Source: Aeromonas lacus (lineage in GTDB: Bacteria > Pseudomonadota > Gammaproteobacteria > Enterobacterales > Aeromonadaceae). From it: DNA of 52,617 nt. The stretch lies in assembly GCF_000764665.1 (NCBI RefSeq), contig NZ_JRGM01000141.1:1-52617 (forward strand), written 5' to 3'. The translations under genes and the position numbers were made by a program. Shown here piece after piece: positions 28,563 through 45,848 of this stretch (position 1 is its first letter; each line of letters opens with the position of its first letter). The notes under the pieces were generated by a model. It saw only the letters and a program-made list of their open reading frames with translations. It was not told where the DNA came from and did no database searches.

Positions 28563-29900
28563 TCAACCTGCGGCCAGCTCCTTGCGGTAGCCCTTCACCT
28601 TGGCCAGGAACTGACGACGCTCCTTGCCGCTGAGCGGTTCGGCCATCGGCAGCTTGGCAGTCATGGCGTTGACCGGGCGGTTGTTGATGCGCAGCTCATA
28701 GTGGAGGTGAGCACCGGTCGAGCGACCTGTGTTGCCGGAGAGGCCGATCTTGTCGCCCATCTTGACCCGCTGACCCGGTTTGACCAGCAGCTTGCTCAGG
28801 TGCAGATAACGGGTCGACAGGGTGCGACCATGCTTGATGACGATATAGGTACCTGCCAGCGGGTGGCTGGTTGCCTTCTGGACGACACCGTCACCGGTCG
28901 CCAGCACCGGAGTACCGACCGGCACTGCAAAGTCGGTACCCTCGTGAGGACGCACCATTCCGGTTACCGGATGTTTACGCGCCGGGTTGAAGTTGGAGCT
29001 GATCCGGTAGCGGCTGTGGGTCGGATAGCGACGGAAGCCACGCTCCAGACTGTTGCCCTGACCGTCGTAATAGTTGCCGTCATCGGAGAGCCAGGCCGAT
29101 ACCGTCTGGCCCTGGCTGGTCACTTCCACACCCAGCAGCTGGCTGTTGCCGGTGCTCTTGCCCTCGACGGTCTCCTGGCGTACCAGCACCTTGAATTTGT
29201 CACCCTTTTTCAGGTCCTGGGCAAAGTTCATTCGCCACTGGAACAGGTTGGCAATCTTCTGGATATGGTTGGCCGGAATACCGGCATTGCGGGCGCTGAC
29301 ATAGAAGCTGCCATTAATCACGCCATCGTAACGCTGCGGCTGCCAATCCACCTTCTCGTTGATCATCGAGGCGGTATAGGTGTCGTCGGTACGCGCCATC
29401 ACCAGCGTCTGCTTGATGTTCAGGCGGATCTTGAGCTGTTGCAGGATGTTGTCCTGATCGATCAGCAGCTCGATGGTCTGACCCGGTTTGAGCCGCGCCA
29501 GATAGTTCTTGTTGTCCGCATCCAGCACCTTGTAGAGGGTGGTGGTCGAGAGCCCCAGATTGTTGAAGATGGCGGTCAGATTCTCACCATTGCGCACCCG
29601 GTAATCCTGCCACTGCGGCGCGGTATCGACCGGAATATCATCGTCCGGCGTGGCGGGATCAACCAGTTCGTGATCGGGGATGTCGTTAAAGTCGGTGTTG
29701 TTTTCGTTGGTTGCCGTACCAGCGGTATCAATCGGCAACTCCAAACGCAGGGGCCGCTCCAGAATGTCGCCCGGGGCCGGCAGCAATGCCACTGCTGACA
29801 GGGTCATCGCCGTCAGCATCACCATTGCGTAAAAGTGTTTGCGGGGAACCGGTGGTTCCCAATTGGCAGCCTGTGCTACCAAGGGACGGAGACGTTTCAT
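28563..29900 (-). CDS. mepM: Murein DD-endopeptidase MepM (M23 family)
   Basis: A 445-residue, membrane-anchored endopeptidase that cuts D-Ala-meso-DAP cross-links during cell wall growth. An N-terminal membrane segment (about 23-42, 'HFYAMVMLTAMTLSAVALLP') is followed by an OapA/LysM-like region ('YRVRNGENLTAIFNNLGLS') and the zinc peptidase domain: 'RPHEGTDFAVPVGTPV' gives the first His and Asp ligands and 'TGAHLHYELRIN' the second HxH. In E. coli the gene is divergent from znuCB next to znuA; here three genes of a Lap-type cluster separate it from znuA. An AGGATAG ribosome site precedes the ATG. Confidence 0.93.
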   Translation of the reverse strand: MKRLRPLVAQAANWEPPVPRKHFYAMVMLTAMTLSAVALLPAPGDILERPLRLELPIDTAGTATNENNTDFNDIPDHELVDPATPDDDIPVDTAPQWQDYRVRNGENLTAIFNNLGLSTTTLYKVLDADNKNYLARLKPGQTIELLIDQDNILQQLKIRLNIKQTLVMARTDDTYTASMINEKVDWQPQRYDGVINGSFYVSARNAGIPANHIQKIANLFQWRMNFAQDLKKGDKFKVLVRQETVEGKSTGNSQLLGVEVTSQGQTVSAWLSDDGNYYDGQGNSLERGFRRYPTHSRYRISSNFNPARKHPVTGMVRPHEGTDFAVPVGTPVLATGDGVVQKATSHPLAGTYIVIKHGRTLSTRYLHLSKLLVKPGQRVKMGDKIGLSGNTGRSTGAHLHYELRINNRPVNAMTAKLPMAEPLSGKERRQFLAKVKGYRKELAAG

Positions 29901-30159: not shown

Positions 30160-31455
30160 ATGACGTTATCAAAACTATTGAGCAGGATAATCCTCATCCT
30201 GTTTCTTATCGGTGCCATCCTGCTGTTTGTGCTGGAAATCACCACAGTCCGCCAATCCATCATCGACCAGATGTCCGCTAATCTGGAGACTGCCGTCACC
30301 GCTCTGGGTCTGGTGCTGCAAGGCACTTTACTCAACGATGACAAGGTGCTGGCCGAAACCATCGTCAATGCCATGTTCGATGGCGGCTTCGTCAGCTCGG
30401 TCAGGTTGGTCGACCCGGACGGACAACTGCTGTTCCAGAAGGTTTTCCAGGCTACCCAGCAAAACGTGCCAGGCTGGCTTCCCTCGGTTATCGGCATGCC
30501 ACCGGTCAAGATTGAGCAAGAACTGACCGACGGTTGGCGCATGCTCGGTACCCTGACACTGGAAGGTCACAGCGGCTACGCCTACCAGCACCTGTGGAAT
30601 GCCATCAGTCGTATTGGACTGGCACTGCTGGGTGGACTGGTTGTCTTTACTCTGGTGATCTCCCTGGTCAGCCAACGGCTGCTAAGGCCGCTGGAACAGA
30701 TCAACCAGCAGTTGATCCGGGTCCGCAAGCACCAGTTCAACAGCGCCCTCCCTACCCCCTGGCTGCAGGATCTCAAAGAGGTGGTGCTCTCCATCAATCA
30801 GCTGGTCTCCGAGCGCAAGCGGGATCTGCTCCAGCAACGCCTAAAAATCACTCAGATGGGCAAGCAACTGCGCTCATCCGCAGCGCAGCCCTTGCAAGGG
30901 CTGACCGACACCCGTGGCGGTTACCTGCAGACCTTCGTCTCGACACAGGGCGAGATCGCCCTCTACCAACGCTTCCTGCCATACCCGGCACTCACCGCCA
31001 ACAGCGAACTGACGACCATTCAAGCGGTTCTGGAACAGTGGTTGCAGCACCATGTTGAAGGTATCTCGCTACCACTCTCCCTGCTCCACCACCCGCAATG
31101 GCAAGCCATAGCCCTGCAGCTGACCCAGGGAAGAGGCAAGACACTCGACTGGCGCTGGGATGTCACCGCTTTCCCGGCTGAGGGTGAGTCGATATTGACC
31201 CGCTTGCAGGAGCAGGGGGTCGAGCTGGCGTTTAGCGCTATTCCGCTCAATACGGAGACCTTCAATCAACTCGATCCCCTCAATCCTGTCTTTGTCTGCT
31301 GCCAGCTGAGCGAGGAGCCGCTCTACTGGCATCTCCTCTCGCAAACCATGCATGCGGCTGGTTACACCCTGTTGGCCGAGGCGGGCACTGGCAGCGACAT
31401 CGACAAGTTGCGCACCTGGGGAGTTGATGGTTATGCCAGGGAGGCACAATCATGA
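30160..31455 (+). CDS. LapD-like membrane receptor lacking GGDEF, with degenerate EAL-like end
   Basis: A 431-residue protein. A first membrane helix (8-28), a periplasmic LapD/MoxY-type domain (about 30-148), a second helix (about 150-172) and a HAMP-like region (172-225) follow the LapD plan. The periplasmic 'VPGWLP' with Trp106, 'DGWRMLGTLTLEGHSGYAYQHLW' resemble the face by which LapD binds LapG. After HAMP there is no GGDEF domain. The last about 160 residues look like the second half of a degraded EAL domain ('AAGYTLLAEAGTGSDIDKLRTWGVDGY' resembles the EAL end), with no catalytic EAL signature. It probably senses or transmits a signal but does not make or break c-di-GMP. The 3' end overlaps the TAXI gene by 4 nt; a LapG protease gene is nearby. 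Confidence 0.8.
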   Translation: MTLSKLLSRIILILFLIGAILLFVLEITTVRQSIIDQMSANLETAVTALGLVLQGTLLNDDKVLAETIVNAMFDGGFVSSVRLVDPDGQLLFQKVFQATQQNVPGWLPSVIGMPPVKIEQELTDGWRMLGTLTLEGHSGYAYQHLWNAISRIGLALLGGLVVFTLVISLVSQRLLRPLEQINQQLIRVRKHQFNSALPTPWLQDLKEVVLSINQLVSERKRDLLQQRLKITQMGKQLRSSAAQPLQGLTDTRGGYLQTFVSTQGEIALYQRFLPYPALTANSELTTIQAVLEQWLQHHVEGISLPLSLLHHPQWQAIALQLTQGRGKTLDWRWDVTAFPAEGESILTRLQEQGVELAFSAIPLNTETFNQLDPLNPVFVCCQLSEEPLYWHLLSQTMHAAGYTLLAEAGTGSDIDKLRTWGVDGYAREAQS

Positions 31456-32393
31456 AAAAGCTGACTATCTTGCTGATGCTGTTCGGCCAAGCCGGAGCAA
31501 TGGCCGCACCAGCCACCATAGCAACAGGCAGTGAACAGGGGATCTACTATCAGGTCACCAGCGAATTCTGCCGGCTGGCACACAAGACAGACCCACAGAT
31601 CAGCTGTGCGCTGCAGGCAACCTCCGGTTCGATGGAAAACCTGCAGCGGCTGCGGAGCGGTGAAAGCCGCTACGCCATGGTGCAGTCTGACTGGCTCTAT
31701 CAGGCCCGTCAGGGCAGCAGCCCTTTCGCCAACGCCGCACAAACTGGCCTGCGCGCGCTGTTCGCGACCCACGCCGAACCCTTTACCATAGTGATCCGGG
31801 CCGACGGCGACATCACGTCACTGGAACAGCTCAAGCTCGCCCCCATCGATATGGGGCTGAAAGGCTCCGGTACCCGCCAGACCGCACTGGCCCTTTTCAA
31901 CTTGCTGGGCGCCAAGGGGCAGGATCTCGACCTGAAAAGCATGGCCAATGCAGCCGAGGCGCTCTGCAGCAAACAGATCGATGCCTATGGACTGGTAATG
32001 GGACATCCCAACAGGATCGTGCTCGATACCGCCAAGCGGTGTGCCATCCGATTTCTGCCGGTCGATGGCGCTCTGCGTGACCAGCTGATCAAGGGAGTCA
32101 GGTATTACCAGCGCAGCCAGGTGCCCGCGCGCATCTATCCGGGCAATCTGAAAGCCACCCCCACCTTTGCCATCGCAGCCACTCTGGTGACCAATGCAAC
32201 CACTCCGGAAGAAGAGGTCTATAACCTGACTCGCGCCATGCTGGCACAGCAGACCAAGTTCAACGAGCAGACTTATGGCTACGCCAACATGTTCCATCAG
32301 GCACGCAACAAAACCGGCCCGGTGCTGAGCATTGAGCAGCATCCGGGCGCAGCACGTTATTTTGCCGAGTTGAAAGCCGCCGGAAAATTATAA
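31452..32393 (+). CDS. TAXI-family periplasmic solute-binding protein
   Basis: A 313-residue exported protein (signal MKKLTILLMLFGQAGAMA). The TAXI-family blocks are 'IATGSEQGIYYQVTSEFCRLAH', 'QATSGSMENLQRLRSGESRYAMVQSDW' and 'DMGLKGSGTRQTALALFNLLG'. TAXI proteins normally deliver ligand to TRAP transporters, but no TRAP permease gene is in the window. Its start overlaps the stop of the LapD-like gene (ATGA), implying translational coupling. I infer that it may present a small ligand to the receptor encoded before it, not to a transporter. Two cysteines ('ISCAL' and 'EALCS') might pair. It converges on lapG, overlapping it by 6 bp. Confidence 0.85.
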   Translation: MKKLTILLMLFGQAGAMAAPATIATGSEQGIYYQVTSEFCRLAHKTDPQISCALQATSGSMENLQRLRSGESRYAMVQSDWLYQARQGSSPFANAAQTGLRALFATHAEPFTIVIRADGDITSLEQLKLAPIDMGLKGSGTRQTALALFNLLGAKGQDLDLKSMANAAEALCSKQIDAYGLVMGHPNRIVLDTAKRCAIRFLPVDGALRDQLIKGVRYYQRSQVPARIYPGNLKATPTFAIAATLVTNATTPEEEVYNLTRAMLAQQTKFNEQTYGYANMFHQARNKTGPVLSIEQHPGAARYFAELKAAGKL

Positions 32394-33062
32394 CTGGCGG
32401 CGGGGGGAACGCAGCTGCTCGCTGGAAAACCGGGTCTTCATCGACGTCCACTGCGCCAGCCTGTCGGCACTGCCTGCCAGTGTTCCCTCACGGCGAGACT
32501 TCATGATCCAGATGCTCTTGGCATCGAAGCTGTAGACAGGGATAAGGTCTGTACGCTGGCTGCCGGGCAGAATGCGGCTGTTGATGTTGTCGAGTACCAG
32601 CGGATCAGATTTTGGGGTAGCGAAATAGAGCGTCACCATGTGGAACTGGTTGTAACGCACCGCCTTGACGTAAGCCAGCCTCAGTTTCTTTTCCGGCACC
32701 CCCAGCTCCATCAGGGTGTAGTACTTGGAGATGCTGTAATCCTCGCAGTCGCCACCGCGTGCGCCGATAAACTCCAGCGGATTGGCCCAATAATCCTCGG
32801 CCCCCCACAGTCTGGGATCATCGCTGTAGGTCAAGTTATTGAAGTAGTGATTTACCAGCTCGATCTTCTGCTGATCCGTAGTACCAGCTCTGGGCGTCAG
32901 CAGGCGGGAAAACGCCTCGGCGCGCTGAATGGCACGCCCGCCGTAGACTTCCTGCAACTTCTCCCGCAGCTCGGGGCTGGCGATATATTCAGACAGGCGG
33001 GAAGCCTGCACGCCGGCACAACCGAGTGCTAGCATGCAGGTGGGGATTAACAGCCATTTCAT
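32388..33062 (-). CDS. lapG: LapG-type periplasmic cysteine protease
   Basis: A 224-residue bacterial transglutaminase-like cysteine protease (BTLCP family). Catalytic triad: Cys106 in 'ARGGDCEDYSISKYY', His141 in 'NQFHMVTLYF' and Asp158 in 'PLVLDNIN', with spacings like the known LapG enzymes. The acidic pair after the Cys (GGDCED) matches calcium-binding residues. LapG cleaves the N-terminal anchor of giant adhesins and so releases biofilm; LapD binds and restrains it when c-di-GMP is high. The start region holds a signal peptide ending VQA, though 'LALGC' could also act as a lipobox. No LapA-like adhesin is in the window. Confidence 0.87.
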   Translation of the reverse strand: MKWLLIPTCMLALGCAGVQASRLSEYIASPELREKLQEVYGGRAIQRAEAFSRLLTPRAGTTDQQKIELVNHYFNNLTYSDDPRLWGAEDYWANPLEFIGARGGDCEDYSISKYYTLMELGVPEKKLRLAYVKAVRYNQFHMVTLYFATPKSDPLVLDNINSRILPGSQRTDLIPVYSFDAKSIWIMKSRREGTLAGSADRLAQWTSMKTRFSSEQLRSPRRQL

Positions 33063-33138: not shown

Positions 33139-34059
33139 TCAACGGCACTGGGCAAAGGCGCTGGCCAGCTGATCCATGAACTGGGGATAACCATCCGGAC
33201 CGAGCGGAACCTGCTCACCCACCTCATCCAGCAGCAGCACTCTGGCACCGGTATTGCGGGCAACCGACTCGATCACCGCTGGCGAGAATTGCGGCTCGGC
33301 ATAGATGCAGCTTGCCTGCTTCTCCTCCAGCGCCTTGCGGATCTCGACCAGTGTTTTTGCTCCCGGCCGGCGCTCCGGACTGACGGTAAAGTGGCCCTTG
33401 GAACTCATGCCGTAGTGGCGCTCCCAGTAGCCATACGCCTCGTGGAAGACAAAGTACCCCTTCTGGTTCACCGCCTTCATCTGGCCGGCAATCACCTTGT
33501 CCTTGGCATCTACCTTGGCATCAAATGCCGCGAGGTTGGCGTCATAGCGAGCCTGATTGGCCGGATCCAGCTTGCCCACTTCGCTTGCGATCGCCTTGGC
33601 AATCACCTTGGCCTGCGTCGGGCCAAGCCAGATATGGGGGTCGATCCCTTCATGATGATGACCTTCATGCCCTTCATCGCCATGTTCATTAGCCGCATGG
33701 TCATCGTGTTGATGGCCATCATGGCTATCCTTGGTCGCGTAGTTGAACAGCGGCATACCCGGCACCTGGGTCAGGGTTAGAGCATGGGGATGGTTGGCCA
33801 GCGGTTTGGCCATAAAACCTTCCAGCTCGGGGCCGACCCACACCACCAGACCAGCACCGTTGATGCTGCGAATATCGGAGGGACGCAGGGAAAAGTCGTG
33901 GGGAGAAGCGCCGGTCGGCAGCAATACCTTGGGCTCGCTCACCCCGTCAGTGATCGCCGCGGCAATAAAGCCGAGGGGCTTGATGGTGGTCAGCACCTCC
34001 ACGGCACGAACAGGCAAACTCACCGCCAGCAGGGCAGTGAAAAAAGCAATAATTCTCAT
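33139..34059 (-). CDS. znuA: Zinc ABC transporter periplasmic binding protein ZnuA
   Basis: A 306-residue cluster-9 metal-binding protein (signal about 1-19, MRIIAFFTALLAVSLPVRA). Metal ligands include His54 in 'GASPHDFSLRP' and His in 'DPHIWLGP', 'FVFHEAYGYWERHYG'; a His/Asp/Glu-rich loop (about 112-138) is typical for zinc rather than manganese. It delivers zinc to ZnuBC. It is divergent from znuCB, and the 96-bp gap has two Zur boxes. Confidence 0.95.
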   Translation of the reverse strand: MRIIAFFTALLAVSLPVRAVEVLTTIKPLGFIAAAITDGVSEPKVLLPTGASPHDFSLRPSDIRSINGAGLVVWVGPELEGFMAKPLANHPHALTLTQVPGMPLFNYATKDSHDGHQHDDHAANEHGDEGHEGHHHEGIDPHIWLGPTQAKVIAKAIASEVGKLDPANQARYDANLAAFDAKVDAKDKVIAGQMKAVNQKGYFVFHEAYGYWERHYGMSSKGHFTVSPERRPGAKTLVEIRKALEEKQASCIYAEPQFSPAVIESVARNTGARVLLLDEVGEQVPLGPDGYPQFMDQLASAFAQCR

Positions 34060-43052: not shown

Positions 43053-45095
43053 ATGACAAACTTTTTCAAGGCAGCCCTGCTGATGGCCTGCCTGCTGTGG
43101 CAATCCACGGGATTGGCCAGCGATACGGGCTGGCTCACCAGCCCCCAGAACGATCACGCCAAGGTCAGGCTGCAAGCCGACCGCAGCGCCCCTGACCACA
43201 CCCGCATCCTGCTCGACGTAGCCCTCGAGTCCGGCTGGAAGACCTACTGGCACAGCCCGGGCGAAGGGGGCATTGCCCCCCAGATCCTGTGGGATGAACC
43301 GGTTGGTGACTTCCAGTGGCGCTGGCCCGCTCCGCACCACTTCGAGGTGGCTGGGCTCAGCACTCAGGGTTATCAGGGGGAAGTGCGCTTCCCCCTGAGC
43401 CTCAACTATCCCGCCGGGCAATCGCTCAAGGGCACCTTGCGCCTCTCCACCTGCAGCAACGTCTGCATCCTGACCGATTTCCCCTTCACCCTCGCGGTGG
43501 ATGGCGCCACCCCGGCCAACTTCGACTTTGCCTGGGCGAAGGCGATGAGTACCCTGCCCCAGCCGCTAACCGCAGAGACCCGGGTCGAGCTTGGTTATCA
43601 GCACAACCAGCTGCAACTGCGCGCCGAGCGGGCAGAGGGCTGGCAATCGCCTGCCCTCTTTATCGATGCGCTGGAAGGCGCCGAGTTTGGCAAACCGGCG
43701 CTTGAGGTCGAGGGCAACACCCTGATTGCCCGGGTGCCGGTGAGCGACGGCTGGCAGGGGGATGCGCCGGATCTGCGCGGCCAATCCCTCGGCCTGCTGC
43801 TCACCAGTGGCGAACAGGCGTGGCAGGGCAAGGGGACGATCGGCGCGCCGATCGCGCTGCCCAACCAAAGCCATTCGCTGTTCTGGTTGCTGGGGGCGGC
43901 GCTGCTCGGCGGCCTTATCCTCAACCTGATGCCCTGCGTGCTGCCGGTGCTGGCGCTCAAGCTGGGATCTGTGCTGCAACATCAACAGCGTGAACAGGGA
44001 ACGGTGCGCAAGCAGTTCCTTGCCGCCAGCGCCGGGATCATCGCCTCCTTCTGGGTGCTGGCGGCCATGAGCAGTCTGCTGCGCGCCACGCAAGGGGCCG
44101 TCGGCTGGGGCATCCAGTTCCAGAGCGCCGGTTTTATCGGCTTTATGGTGCTTGTCACCCTGCTGTTTTGCGCTAACCTGCTGGGGCTGTTCGAAATCCG
44201 TCTGCCGAGCAACCTCAACACCCGCCTCGCCACCAGCGGCGGCAATGGCCTCGGCGGCCACTTTCTGCAGGGAAGTTTCGCCACTCTGCTGGCGACCCCC
44301 TGCTCGGCCCCCTTCCTCGGCACTGCAGTGGCCTTTGCGCTGGCGGCGCCCCTTGGCCAGCTCTGGCTTATCTTCACAGCTTTGGGGATTGGCATGAGTC
44401 TTCCCTGGCTGCTGGTGGCGGCTCTGCCGCGGCTCGCCCTCTGGCTGCCCAAGCCGGGTCGCTGGATGGGGCGCCTGCGCATCCTGCTCGGCCTGATGAT
44501 GCTGGGCTCCAGCCTCTGGCTGGCGAGCCTGCTTGGCAACCATCTGGGCAACATGCAGGTTTATTGGCTGATGACAGCCATGCTGCTGGCACTGCTGATT
44601 GGCATCGTCTGGCGTTATGGCATGCGCGGCTTCACGCTGGCCCTCTCCCTCTCGACGCTTGTCGGCGCTGCCCTGCTGCTGGGGGGCGCCTTCACAGCGC
44701 AGGGGTCGGGCAACGTCGACCGGGTGGTCTGGCAGCCCCTCTCTGAACGCGCCATCACCGATGCACTTGCCCAGAACAAACGGGTCTTTATCGATGTCAC
44801 CGCCGACTGGTGCGTTACCTGCAAGGCCAACAAATACAACGTGTTGCTGCGCGATGAGGTGCAAACCGCCCTCTCGACCCCCGATGTGGTGGCCCTGCGC
44901 GGCGACTGGAGCAAACCAAGCGACACCATCGCCGCCTTCCTGCGTAAGCGGGGCGCGGCTGCGGTTCCCTTCAACCAGATTTACGGCCCGGAGTTGCCGC
45001 AGGGGGTCACGCTGTCACCCCTGCTCGACAAGGACGATCTGCTGACCACATTGCACAAGGCTGGCCTGCTTCAGGCTGGCACCACCCGATTTTAA
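43053..45095 (+). CDS. scsB: ScsB-type DsbD-family thiol-disulfide reductase
   Basis: A 680-residue membrane protein. A signal peptide and a periplasmic domain (about 22-270, with 'LSTCSNVCILTDFPF') precede an eight-helix DsbD-type transmembrane domain with cysteines in 'NLMPCVLPVLALK' and 'LATPCSAPFLGTAV', and a C-terminal thioredoxin domain with 'TADWCVTCKANKYN'. It passes electrons from cytoplasmic thioredoxin to periplasmic partners, here likely ScsC and ScsD. Domain order and the following genes favour ScsB over general DsbD. Confidence 0.9.
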   Translation: MTNFFKAALLMACLLWQSTGLASDTGWLTSPQNDHAKVRLQADRSAPDHTRILLDVALESGWKTYWHSPGEGGIAPQILWDEPVGDFQWRWPAPHHFEVAGLSTQGYQGEVRFPLSLNYPAGQSLKGTLRLSTCSNVCILTDFPFTLAVDGATPANFDFAWAKAMSTLPQPLTAETRVELGYQHNQLQLRAERAEGWQSPALFIDALEGAEFGKPALEVEGNTLIARVPVSDGWQGDAPDLRGQSLGLLLTSGEQAWQGKGTIGAPIALPNQSHSLFWLLGAALLGGLILNLMPCVLPVLALKLGSVLQHQQREQGTVRKQFLAASAGIIASFWVLAAMSSLLRATQGAVGWGIQFQSAGFIGFMVLVTLLFCANLLGLFEIRLPSNLNTRLATSGGNGLGGHFLQGSFATLLATPCSAPFLGTAVAFALAAPLGQLWLIFTALGIGMSLPWLLVAALPRLALWLPKPGRWMGRLRILLGLMMLGSSLWLASLLGNHLGNMQVYWLMTAMLLALLIGIVWRYGMRGFTLALSLSTLVGAALLLGGAFTAQGSGNVDRVVWQPLSERAITDALAQNKRVFIDVTADWCVTCKANKYNVLLRDEVQTALSTPDVVALRGDWSKPSDTIAAFLRKRGAAAVPFNQIYGPELPQGVTLSPLLDKDDLLTTLHKAGLLQAGTTRF

Positions 45096-45104
45096 GGAGT
45101 AACC

Positions 45105-45848
45105 ATGAAACCGACTCTGAGCGCCCTGACCCTGCTGGCCTCCCTTTCCGCAGCCCTGCTGGCTCCGGCCCTGCACGCCGCCCCCTTCACCCCTGAGCAG
45201 GAGGCCCGCATCAAAGAGCTGATCCGCGAGACCCTGATCGCCAACCCCAAGATCCTCGACGAGGCAGCTGAATCCTGGGAGAAGCAGAACGCGGCGGCCC
45301 AGCAGGCGCAGCTTGGCAACTTCATCAAGGGCAACAAGGATGTACTGTTCAACAGCCCCACCAGCCCGCGCCTCGGCGCCAGAAACCCCAAGCTGACGCT
45401 GGTACTGTTCACCGACTACAACTGCCCCTACTGCAAGCAGTTCGATCCCCAGCTGACCAAGCTGCTCAAGGCCTATCCGGACGATCTGGGGCTGGTGATC
45501 AAGCTGCTGCCGTTCAAGGGGCAGACCTCTGCCAAGGCAGCCCAATACAGCCTGACCCTGTGGCAGCAGGATCCGGCCCGCTTCCTCGCCCTGCATGACA
45601 AGCTGATGAGCAAGCAGGGGATGCTGACCGAGGCGGATATCAACAAGGCGCTGGCCGCCACCGGCAACGTGGCGCTCAAGCCCGCGCCCAAGGCGACCGA
45701 AGAGCTGCGCAACAGCCTGCGCATCGGCACCATTCTGGGGGTGCAGGGCACACCGGCGACCCTGATCGGTAACCAGCTGGTGCCGGGCGCCATCCCCTAT
45801 GAGGAGCTGGAGCAGCTGGTTAAGACAGAACTGGCCAAGCTGGGGTAA
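45105..45848 (+). CDS. scsC: ScsC-type periplasmic thiol oxidoreductase (DsbA family)
   Basis: A 247-residue exported protein (signal ending LHA). An N-terminal helical extension (about 30-80, 'EQEARIKELIRETLIANPKILDEAAESW') resembles the trimerisation stalk of some ScsC proteins. The thioredoxin domain has the CPYC active site in 'DYNCPYCKQFD' and the cis-Pro loop 'VQGTPATLIG'. It probably acts as a disulfide isomerase or reductase kept reduced by ScsB. It starts 9 bp after scsB. Confidence 0.9.
   Translation: MKPTLSALTLLASLSAALLAPALHAAPFTPEQEARIKELIRETLIANPKILDEAAESWEKQNAAAQQAQLGNFIKGNKDVLFNSPTSPRLGARNPKLTLVLFTDYNCPYCKQFDPQLTKLLKAYPDDLGLVIKLLPFKGQTSAKAAQYSLTLWQQDPARFLALHDKLMSKQGMLTEADINKALAATGNVALKPAPKATEELRNSLRIGTILGVQGTPATLIGNQLVPGAIPYEELEQLVKTELAKLG

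Follow-up and report, generated by a model that had tools for sequence, protein, structure and literature searches.

The model for control by cytoplasmic cyclic di-GMP (c-di-GMP) of a protease that lies outside the inner membrane is LapD, which acts on the protease LapG. In LapD the tryptophan of a GWxQ loop anchors LapG, and both W125E and D72K abolish LapG binding, as stated in the available part of one report (PMC4359373); the accessible text of another describes signalling by LapD across the membrane in both directions (PMC5231407). Here we describe a conserved cassette of three genes in a 52,617-nucleotide stretch of Aeromonas lacus DNA (contig NZ_JRGM01000141.1, positions 1-52,617; this whole stretch is referred to as the window, and all coordinates are given on it). 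The genes encode a LapD-like receptor (LapDs), a TAXI-type solute-binding protein, and a second LapG-type protease (LapG2). The closest described systems are LapD-LapG of Pseudomonas fluorescens and CdgS9-LapG of Legionella, which have in common with the cassette the LapD/MoxY domain, the anchoring tryptophan, an equivalent of Asp72, the S-helix, the EAL fold and the LapG catalytic triad. However, LapDs has no GGDEF domain, its EAL-like domain of approximately 180 residues has altered motif positions, and the glutamine of GWxQ is gone. In addition, the TAXI start codon overlaps the LapDs stop codon, and no adhesin gene adjoins the three genes. We tentatively propose that the cassette is a ligand-gated LapD/LapG switch with its c-di-GMP input lost, in which a periplasmic nutrient would decide release from the surface; we place the probability of this reading somewhat short of even.

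Other systems resemble the cassette in part. DvhD-DvhG of Desulfovibrio vulgaris achieves LapD-like control logic with other domains, since DvhD combines dCache and HD-GYP (PMC13090378). DvhD binds c-di-GMP, whereas this input appears to be lost in LapDs, and the portion of that report available to us describes no TAXI protein. In NspS-MbaA, which responds to polyamines, and in YfiR-YfiN, it is a distinct periplasmic partner that determines which state the membrane receptor takes, as we propose for TAXI and LapDs. However, the outputs of both, as far as the sources consulted in part describe them, are c-di-GMP enzymes, while the candidate output here is a periplasmic protease.

The cassette lies between mepM and znuA. 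LapDs and TAXI are encoded on the plus strand, and LapG2 is convergent with TAXI on the minus strand, the ends of the two genes overlapping by 6 bases. The window's LapDs is 95-97% identical to proteins named for A. jandaei. The region of the window that was scanned for promoters yielded none. The features are as follows.

30160..31455, plus strand: LapDs, a 431-aa LapD-like inner-membrane receptor (open reading frame; LapD_MoxY_N match, E-value 8.6e-34; structure model and fold)
30250..30603, plus strand: periplasmic output domain of LapDs, residues 31-148
30379..30381, plus strand: Asp74 of LapDs, equivalent of LapD Asp72 (alignment)
30535..30537, plus strand: Trp126 of LapDs, equivalent of LapD Trp125, the LapG anchor in the GWxQ loop (alignment)
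30604..30867, plus strand: second transmembrane segment (TM2), HAMP-like segment and S-helix of LapDs, residues 149-236 (model helices 138-189 and 203-236)
30901..31452, plus strand: EAL-like domain of LapDs, residues 248-431, directly after the S-helix (model, fold, hhalign)
31452..31455, plus strand: ATGA overlap of the LapDs stop and TAXI start
31452..32393, plus strand: TAXI-type solute-binding protein (TIGR02122 profile; no adjoining TRAP permease)
32388..33062, minus strand: LapG2, a second LapG-type cysteine protease, C106-H141-D158 (Peptidase_C93 profile, triad)
28563-29900, minus strand: mepM, flanking gene
33139-34059, minus strand: znuA, flanking gene

LapDs consists of a LapD/MoxY periplasmic domain, which is recognized by Pfam, followed by the HAMP-like segment, the S-helix and the EAL-like domain. 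When the periplasmic domain is aligned with the P. fluorescens periplasmic chain, D72 and W125 of LapD map to D74 and W126 (in GWRM) of LapDs; the offset between the numbering of the chain and that of the paper was reckoned by us from W125. Both residues are invariant in the 34 aligned homologues and in all 32 genome rows. The original prediction had taken W106, in VPGWLP, for the key tryptophan. That residue is likewise conserved, though it is not the reported LapG anchor, and the alignment moves this role to W126. Because the LapG-contact residues are conserved, LapDs is predicted to hold LapG2. The identification of a LapG facing the receptor stands: LapG2 matches Peptidase_C93 (PF06035) with 53.8 bits against a cut-off of 27, and its catalytic triad is invariant in 44 of 44 rows. 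The protein scores 194.5 bits with the NCBIfam LapG equivalog (cut-off 320), and the canonical Aeromonas LapG, at 229.5 bits, likewise falls below. A lipoprotein cysteine (Cys15, in the lipobox-like LALGC of the signal sequence) was considered for LapG2 and rejected as a trait of the genus, the position being Cys in 11 of 15 readable rows, Gly in three and Ala in one; anchoring to the membrane, should it occur, would not be general.

The cytoplasmic half of LapDs differs from that of LapD. No GGDEF domain is matched by Pfam, and in two structure models the S-helix leads straight into an EAL-like fold. This domain is not recognized as EAL by Pfam; when it is aligned by hhalign to its counterpart in the canonical LapD, the E-values are 1.9e-6 (local) and 5.2e-5 (global). 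The HAMP match, at 13.7 bits, is below the cut-off of 25, and the model helices sit in the right place. Within the better-aligned C-terminal half of the EAL-like domain, the lysine of KVD corresponds to Cys380 (mostly Ser or Ile in relatives), and SAIP stands in the place of DHYG. LapDs also scores far below the cut-off of the NCBIfam LapD equivalog (98.9 against 1020 bits), which says little because the full-length Aeromonas LapD misses it too, at 359.6 bits.

Conservation was compared in 18 genomes that carry both receptors, with G022 and G028 set aside. The periplasmic domains are equally well kept (identity 0.910 in LapDs, 0.902 in the canonical LapD), whereas the EAL part is the fastest-drifting part of LapDs, at 0.645 compared with 0.856 in the canonical protein. 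The pattern is the same when G022 and G028 are included (periplasmic 0.869 versus 0.877, EAL 0.577 versus 0.813). Ratios of nonsynonymous to synonymous substitution (dN/dS), calculated with our own Nei-Gojobori script on 199 gene pairs with a whole-gene dS of 0.05-1, are lowest for the periplasmic domain (0.052), followed by TAXI (0.099), HAMP and S-helix (0.148) and the EAL-like domain (0.199). All are well below 1, and the EAL-like domain is still under purifying selection. Since the GGDEF domain is missing, the EAL sites mapped in the C-terminal half appear altered and the EAL-like part has drifted, LapDs probably no longer reads c-di-GMP. Its EAL-like domain has probably been retained as a dimerisation scaffold. 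The original description is borne out in that the receptor derives from LapD, has no GGDEF and ends in an eroded EAL-like part; it had left the c-di-GMP input as either weakened or lost, and loss now appears the probable state.

The gene overlapping LapDs encodes a TAXI protein (TIGR02122, 205.6 bits; cut-off 84.35). The closest solved chain is VcGluP (8s4j; E-value 1.3e-51), which the available text of its report presents as a glutamate-specific TAXI protein with binding dominated by Y45 and Q93 (PMC11574862). With residues mapped from the printed alignment, VcGluP Y45, S75, Q93, H123, E125, G156 and G203 correspond to Y32, S60, Q78, H107, E109, G140 and G184. Six of these are invariant in 32 of 32 genomes, and S60 is replaced by Thr in one. 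The family and the Y45/Q93 ligand residues are thus common to the two proteins, and the ligand is predicted to be glutamate-like; VcGluP, however, belongs to a transport system. As originally noted, no TRAP permease lies beside the window's TAXI gene. The genome has only one TRAP_fused match, which lies on contig C186 and adjoins another TAXI gene. A further TAXI gene without an adjoining permease occurs on contig C53 of the same genome (L007, 1096-2457). It encodes a long Ala/Pro/Ser-rich C-terminal tail; its neighbours, as judged by eye, are a LysR-type regulator on one side and an aminotransferase-like gene on the other. Genome G028 carries a second, divergent TAXI gene on the opposite strand beside its LapDs-TAXI pair (L089, 452-3643, contig C74).

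The three genes are tightly associated in the genus. Orthologues of LapDs, TAXI and LapG2 are each present in the same 35 of 37 Aeromonas genomes, and G010 and G021 lack all three. In these two the gap between mepM and znuA is approximately 0.38 and 0.34 kb, respectively, compared with approximately 3.2 kb in the window. The codon overlap between LapDs and TAXI, reported earlier for the window, is ATGA (-4) in all 31 loci read. In G028 the trio is split, with LapDs and TAXI on one contig that has no LapG, LapG2 beside znuA on another, and mepM on a third. Because the pair stays together there while LapG2 is elsewhere, the receptor and TAXI form the tighter unit. Given the gene overlap and joint presence, we infer that TAXI is the input to LapDs. 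A few copies of LapDs are interrupted: that of G008 has one internal stop codon, and that of G018 is split near residue 274-285 over contigs C27 and C44. An A. piscicola LapDs (L022) ends with its contig near residue 274, where, as in G018, an insertion or an assembly break is possible.

Outside the genus, we scanned 370 gammaproteobacterial genomes that are at least 90% complete. The LapD/MoxY domain occurs in 78, the window's own included. Among the other 77, 17 have a TAXI match over the cut-off and none of these adjoins the LapD/MoxY gene, as judged by eye from coordinates in assemblies whose fragmentation could hide cases. G162 has a below-cut-off TAXI match approximately 4.6 kb from a LapD/MoxY-domain frame. 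Short LapD/MoxY frames from the scan were rejected as further cases: that of G352 is a LapD/MoxY-GGDEF protein (translation read by eye), that of G269 is truncated, and that of G285 is a LapD split into two overlapping frames. One near-full-length copy was found in a plasmid collection, in the chromosome-sized 4.9-Mb A. caviae record NZ_AP026896.1. Homologues of LapDs and TAXI also occur on a 69449-base contig of a Gekko kuhli assembly (P0105, P0212), which is most simply Aeromonas contamination.

LapDs, TAXI and LapG2 constitute a second system beside the canonical one, since the genome encodes, at another place, a full-length LapD accompanied by a LapG and an adhesin of its own. The 5.9-kb contig C156 carries LapG, a 641-aa GGDEF-EAL LapD with an intact GWLQ, and the first part of a retention-module adhesin, which continues beyond the contig end; the upstream end of the contig contains, by eye, the end of a type I secretion outer-membrane-like gene. 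The families are those of the trio, but the adhesin is adjoining and there is no TAXI gene on this contig. The two LapG proteins are 48% identical and the N-terminal parts of the two LapD proteins 33%. The original prediction had named, as a finding that would count against it, a complete GGDEF-EAL LapD next to adhesin genes that interacts with this LapG; the first half of this holds, as the LapD and its adhesin do exist, on C156, and this LapD has a LapG of its own. A full-length canonical LapD is found in 36 of the 37 Aeromonas genomes, the exception being G025, which is 80% complete. Another LapG paralogue, approximately 63% identical to LapG2, is present in G035 (L096, 7114-9679, contig C26) just downstream of a CSS-motif EAL protein, a possible pairing of LapG with another receptor type.

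A search of the genome for adhesins, as had been suggested, identified retention modules on contigs C156, C91 and C35, giving three candidate adhesins with PAAG or TAAG sites. These fit the [T/A/P]AAG consensus given in the accessible portion of PMC13090378. The modules outside C156 are therefore possible LapG2 substrates away from the canonical locus. Modules at 93 loci (L064 and L132 being the same place) were each assigned, according to their highest BLAST score, to one of the three types present in the window's own genome. Left out were the canonical-locus modules of G001, G003, G009, G014, G022, G032 and G034, and further modules of G001 (C5), G007 (C30), G012 (C97), G019 (two) and G022 (C69). 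In 34 of the 35 trio-bearing genomes, one or more modules clearly score highest with the C35 type (G022 is unclear). The single retention module found in G028 is of this type, on a different contig from the canonical LapD. Weak C35-like modules also occur in the two trio-less genomes, G010 and G021, which makes the link between adhesin type and trio suggestive only. A retention-module adhesin of the C35 type, outside the canonical LapD locus, is the best candidate for the LapG2 substrate. In G028 the canonical LapD (L118, contig C283) has no retention-module match on its contig, and the next long frames are on the opposite strand. The score of the C44 module of G025 is identical to that of G003.

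Elsewhere in the window (43053-45848), a gene for a DsbD-like protein precedes one for a ScsC-like protein with a thioredoxin fold, a pair which we take to resemble a suppressor-of-copper-sensitivity type locus.

Retention of the LapG-binding face, loss of the messenger side and the overlap with a binding-protein gene together fit a change of input from the cytoplasm to the periplasm. In the proposed mechanism, TAXI, once loaded with a glutamate-like nutrient, would bind to the LapDs periplasmic domain and thereby set how tightly LapDs holds LapG2. As to the sign, our guess is that with ligand present TAXI would be docked, LapG2 held and the adhesin kept, while with ligand scarce LapG2 would be free, the adhesin cut and the cell released. 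The capture of LapG2 is the firmest of these steps and TAXI as the input is less firm; glutamate as the ligand and the sign of the response are the least so.

Several observations weigh against this proposal. The GWxQ glutamine of LapDs is replaced by Ile (18 of 34 rows), Met (14), Leu (1) or Val (1), compared with an intact GWLQ in 23 of 23 canonical Aeromonas LapD proteins. The EAL-like domain is not alone in its drift: identities in LapDs and the canonical LapD are 0.769 and 0.976 for the first transmembrane segment, 0.792 and 0.865 for TM2, and 0.777 and 0.892 for HAMP and S-helix. In the N-terminal half of the EAL-like domain the assignment of residues is weak, being based on the global alignment only. 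At the positions of VcGluP S40, Y46, D157, Y200 and M201, TAXI has Gly in 27, His in 15, Thr in 32, Leu in 29 and Val in 32 of the 32 genomes, respectively; with key residues kept but these positions different, the ligand is called glutamate-like and no more. The absence of the trio from G010 and G021 probably counts as one joint loss, not as independent evidence, because the two group together in the canonical LapD tree (23 genomes, support 0.845), with the trio-bearing G022 outside. Co-divergence of TAXI and the periplasmic domain in a mirror-tree analysis (partial r 0.837, 29 genomes) was rejected as support since it is unspecific without the outlier G022 (0.621 for the periplasmic and 0.587 for the EAL-like domain; 0.611 and 0.705 without G022 and G031). 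Finally, TAXI proteins can pair with transporters other than TRAP. In TAXI-GltS, which also has no TRAP permease, the genes overlap by 3 bp (PMC12344293, from the text available); that system is one of transport, whereas the overlapping gene here encodes a receptor.

This last precedent, together with the permease-less TAXI gene on contig C53, speaks for an explanation in which LapDs anchors LapG2 or acts as its decoy without any gating, and TAXI serves an unlinked carrier, merely sharing a transcript. We consider this improbable given that the ATGA overlap is present in every locus read, that LapDs and TAXI remain paired in G028 while LapG2 is elsewhere, and that both are missing from G010 and G021. 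It is about equally improbable that TAXI, with or without LapG2, reports the periplasmic state through LapDs to a cytoplasmic partner of the EAL-like domain, adhesin release not being the main output. Outside-in signalling has precedents in YfiR-YfiN (PMC4359373) and NspS-MbaA (PMC8967002), as described in the sections of those papers available to us. LapDs retains an EAL-like fold in two models and matches the DgcN/YfiN profile (E-value 6.8e-15, below that profile's cut-off). However, LapDs has neither a GGDEF domain nor an EAL domain that Pfam recognizes, the LapG2 triad is fully kept, and LapG2 is absent from G010 and G021 together with the other two genes.

Somewhat less unlikely, though still doubtful, is an indirect response to c-di-GMP, in which LapDs and the canonical LapD, through their EAL-like and EAL domains, form mixed oligomers that put LapG2 under the usual messenger, TAXI only tuning this. 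A full-length LapD is available in the same genome and in 36 of the 37 Aeromonas genomes, LapD forms dimers of dimers via its EAL domains according to the accessible part of PMC5231407, and the EAL-like domain is under purifying selection (dN/dS 0.199). Its faster drift (0.645 versus 0.856) would be unexpected for an interface with a conserved partner. The ligand-gated switch without c-di-GMP input is the reading we prefer to these three.

We found no account of the three-gene arrangement, which the original prediction had thought undescribed, nor of any LapD-like receptor coupled to a TAXI protein, in open-licence full-text literature as judged by titles and the beginnings of abstracts; subscription papers fall mostly outside this search. 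The cassette could be the first case of nutrient-gated, second-messenger-free control of LapG and adhesin release, with TAXI serving as co-receptor in signalling by an amino acid, for instance glutamate, but we regard this as slightly more doubtful than the switch itself. If the proposal is true, it would show that the periplasm can supply the input to the output half of a LapD-type receptor, and three small proteins would suffice for testing whether a nutrient controls biofilm release directly. It would also give a signalling role to TAXI proteins, which the cited papers, in the parts available, treat as transport proteins. Most of the Aeromonas genomes examined carry the trio beside a normal LapD, so that the two forms of control could be compared in one cell.

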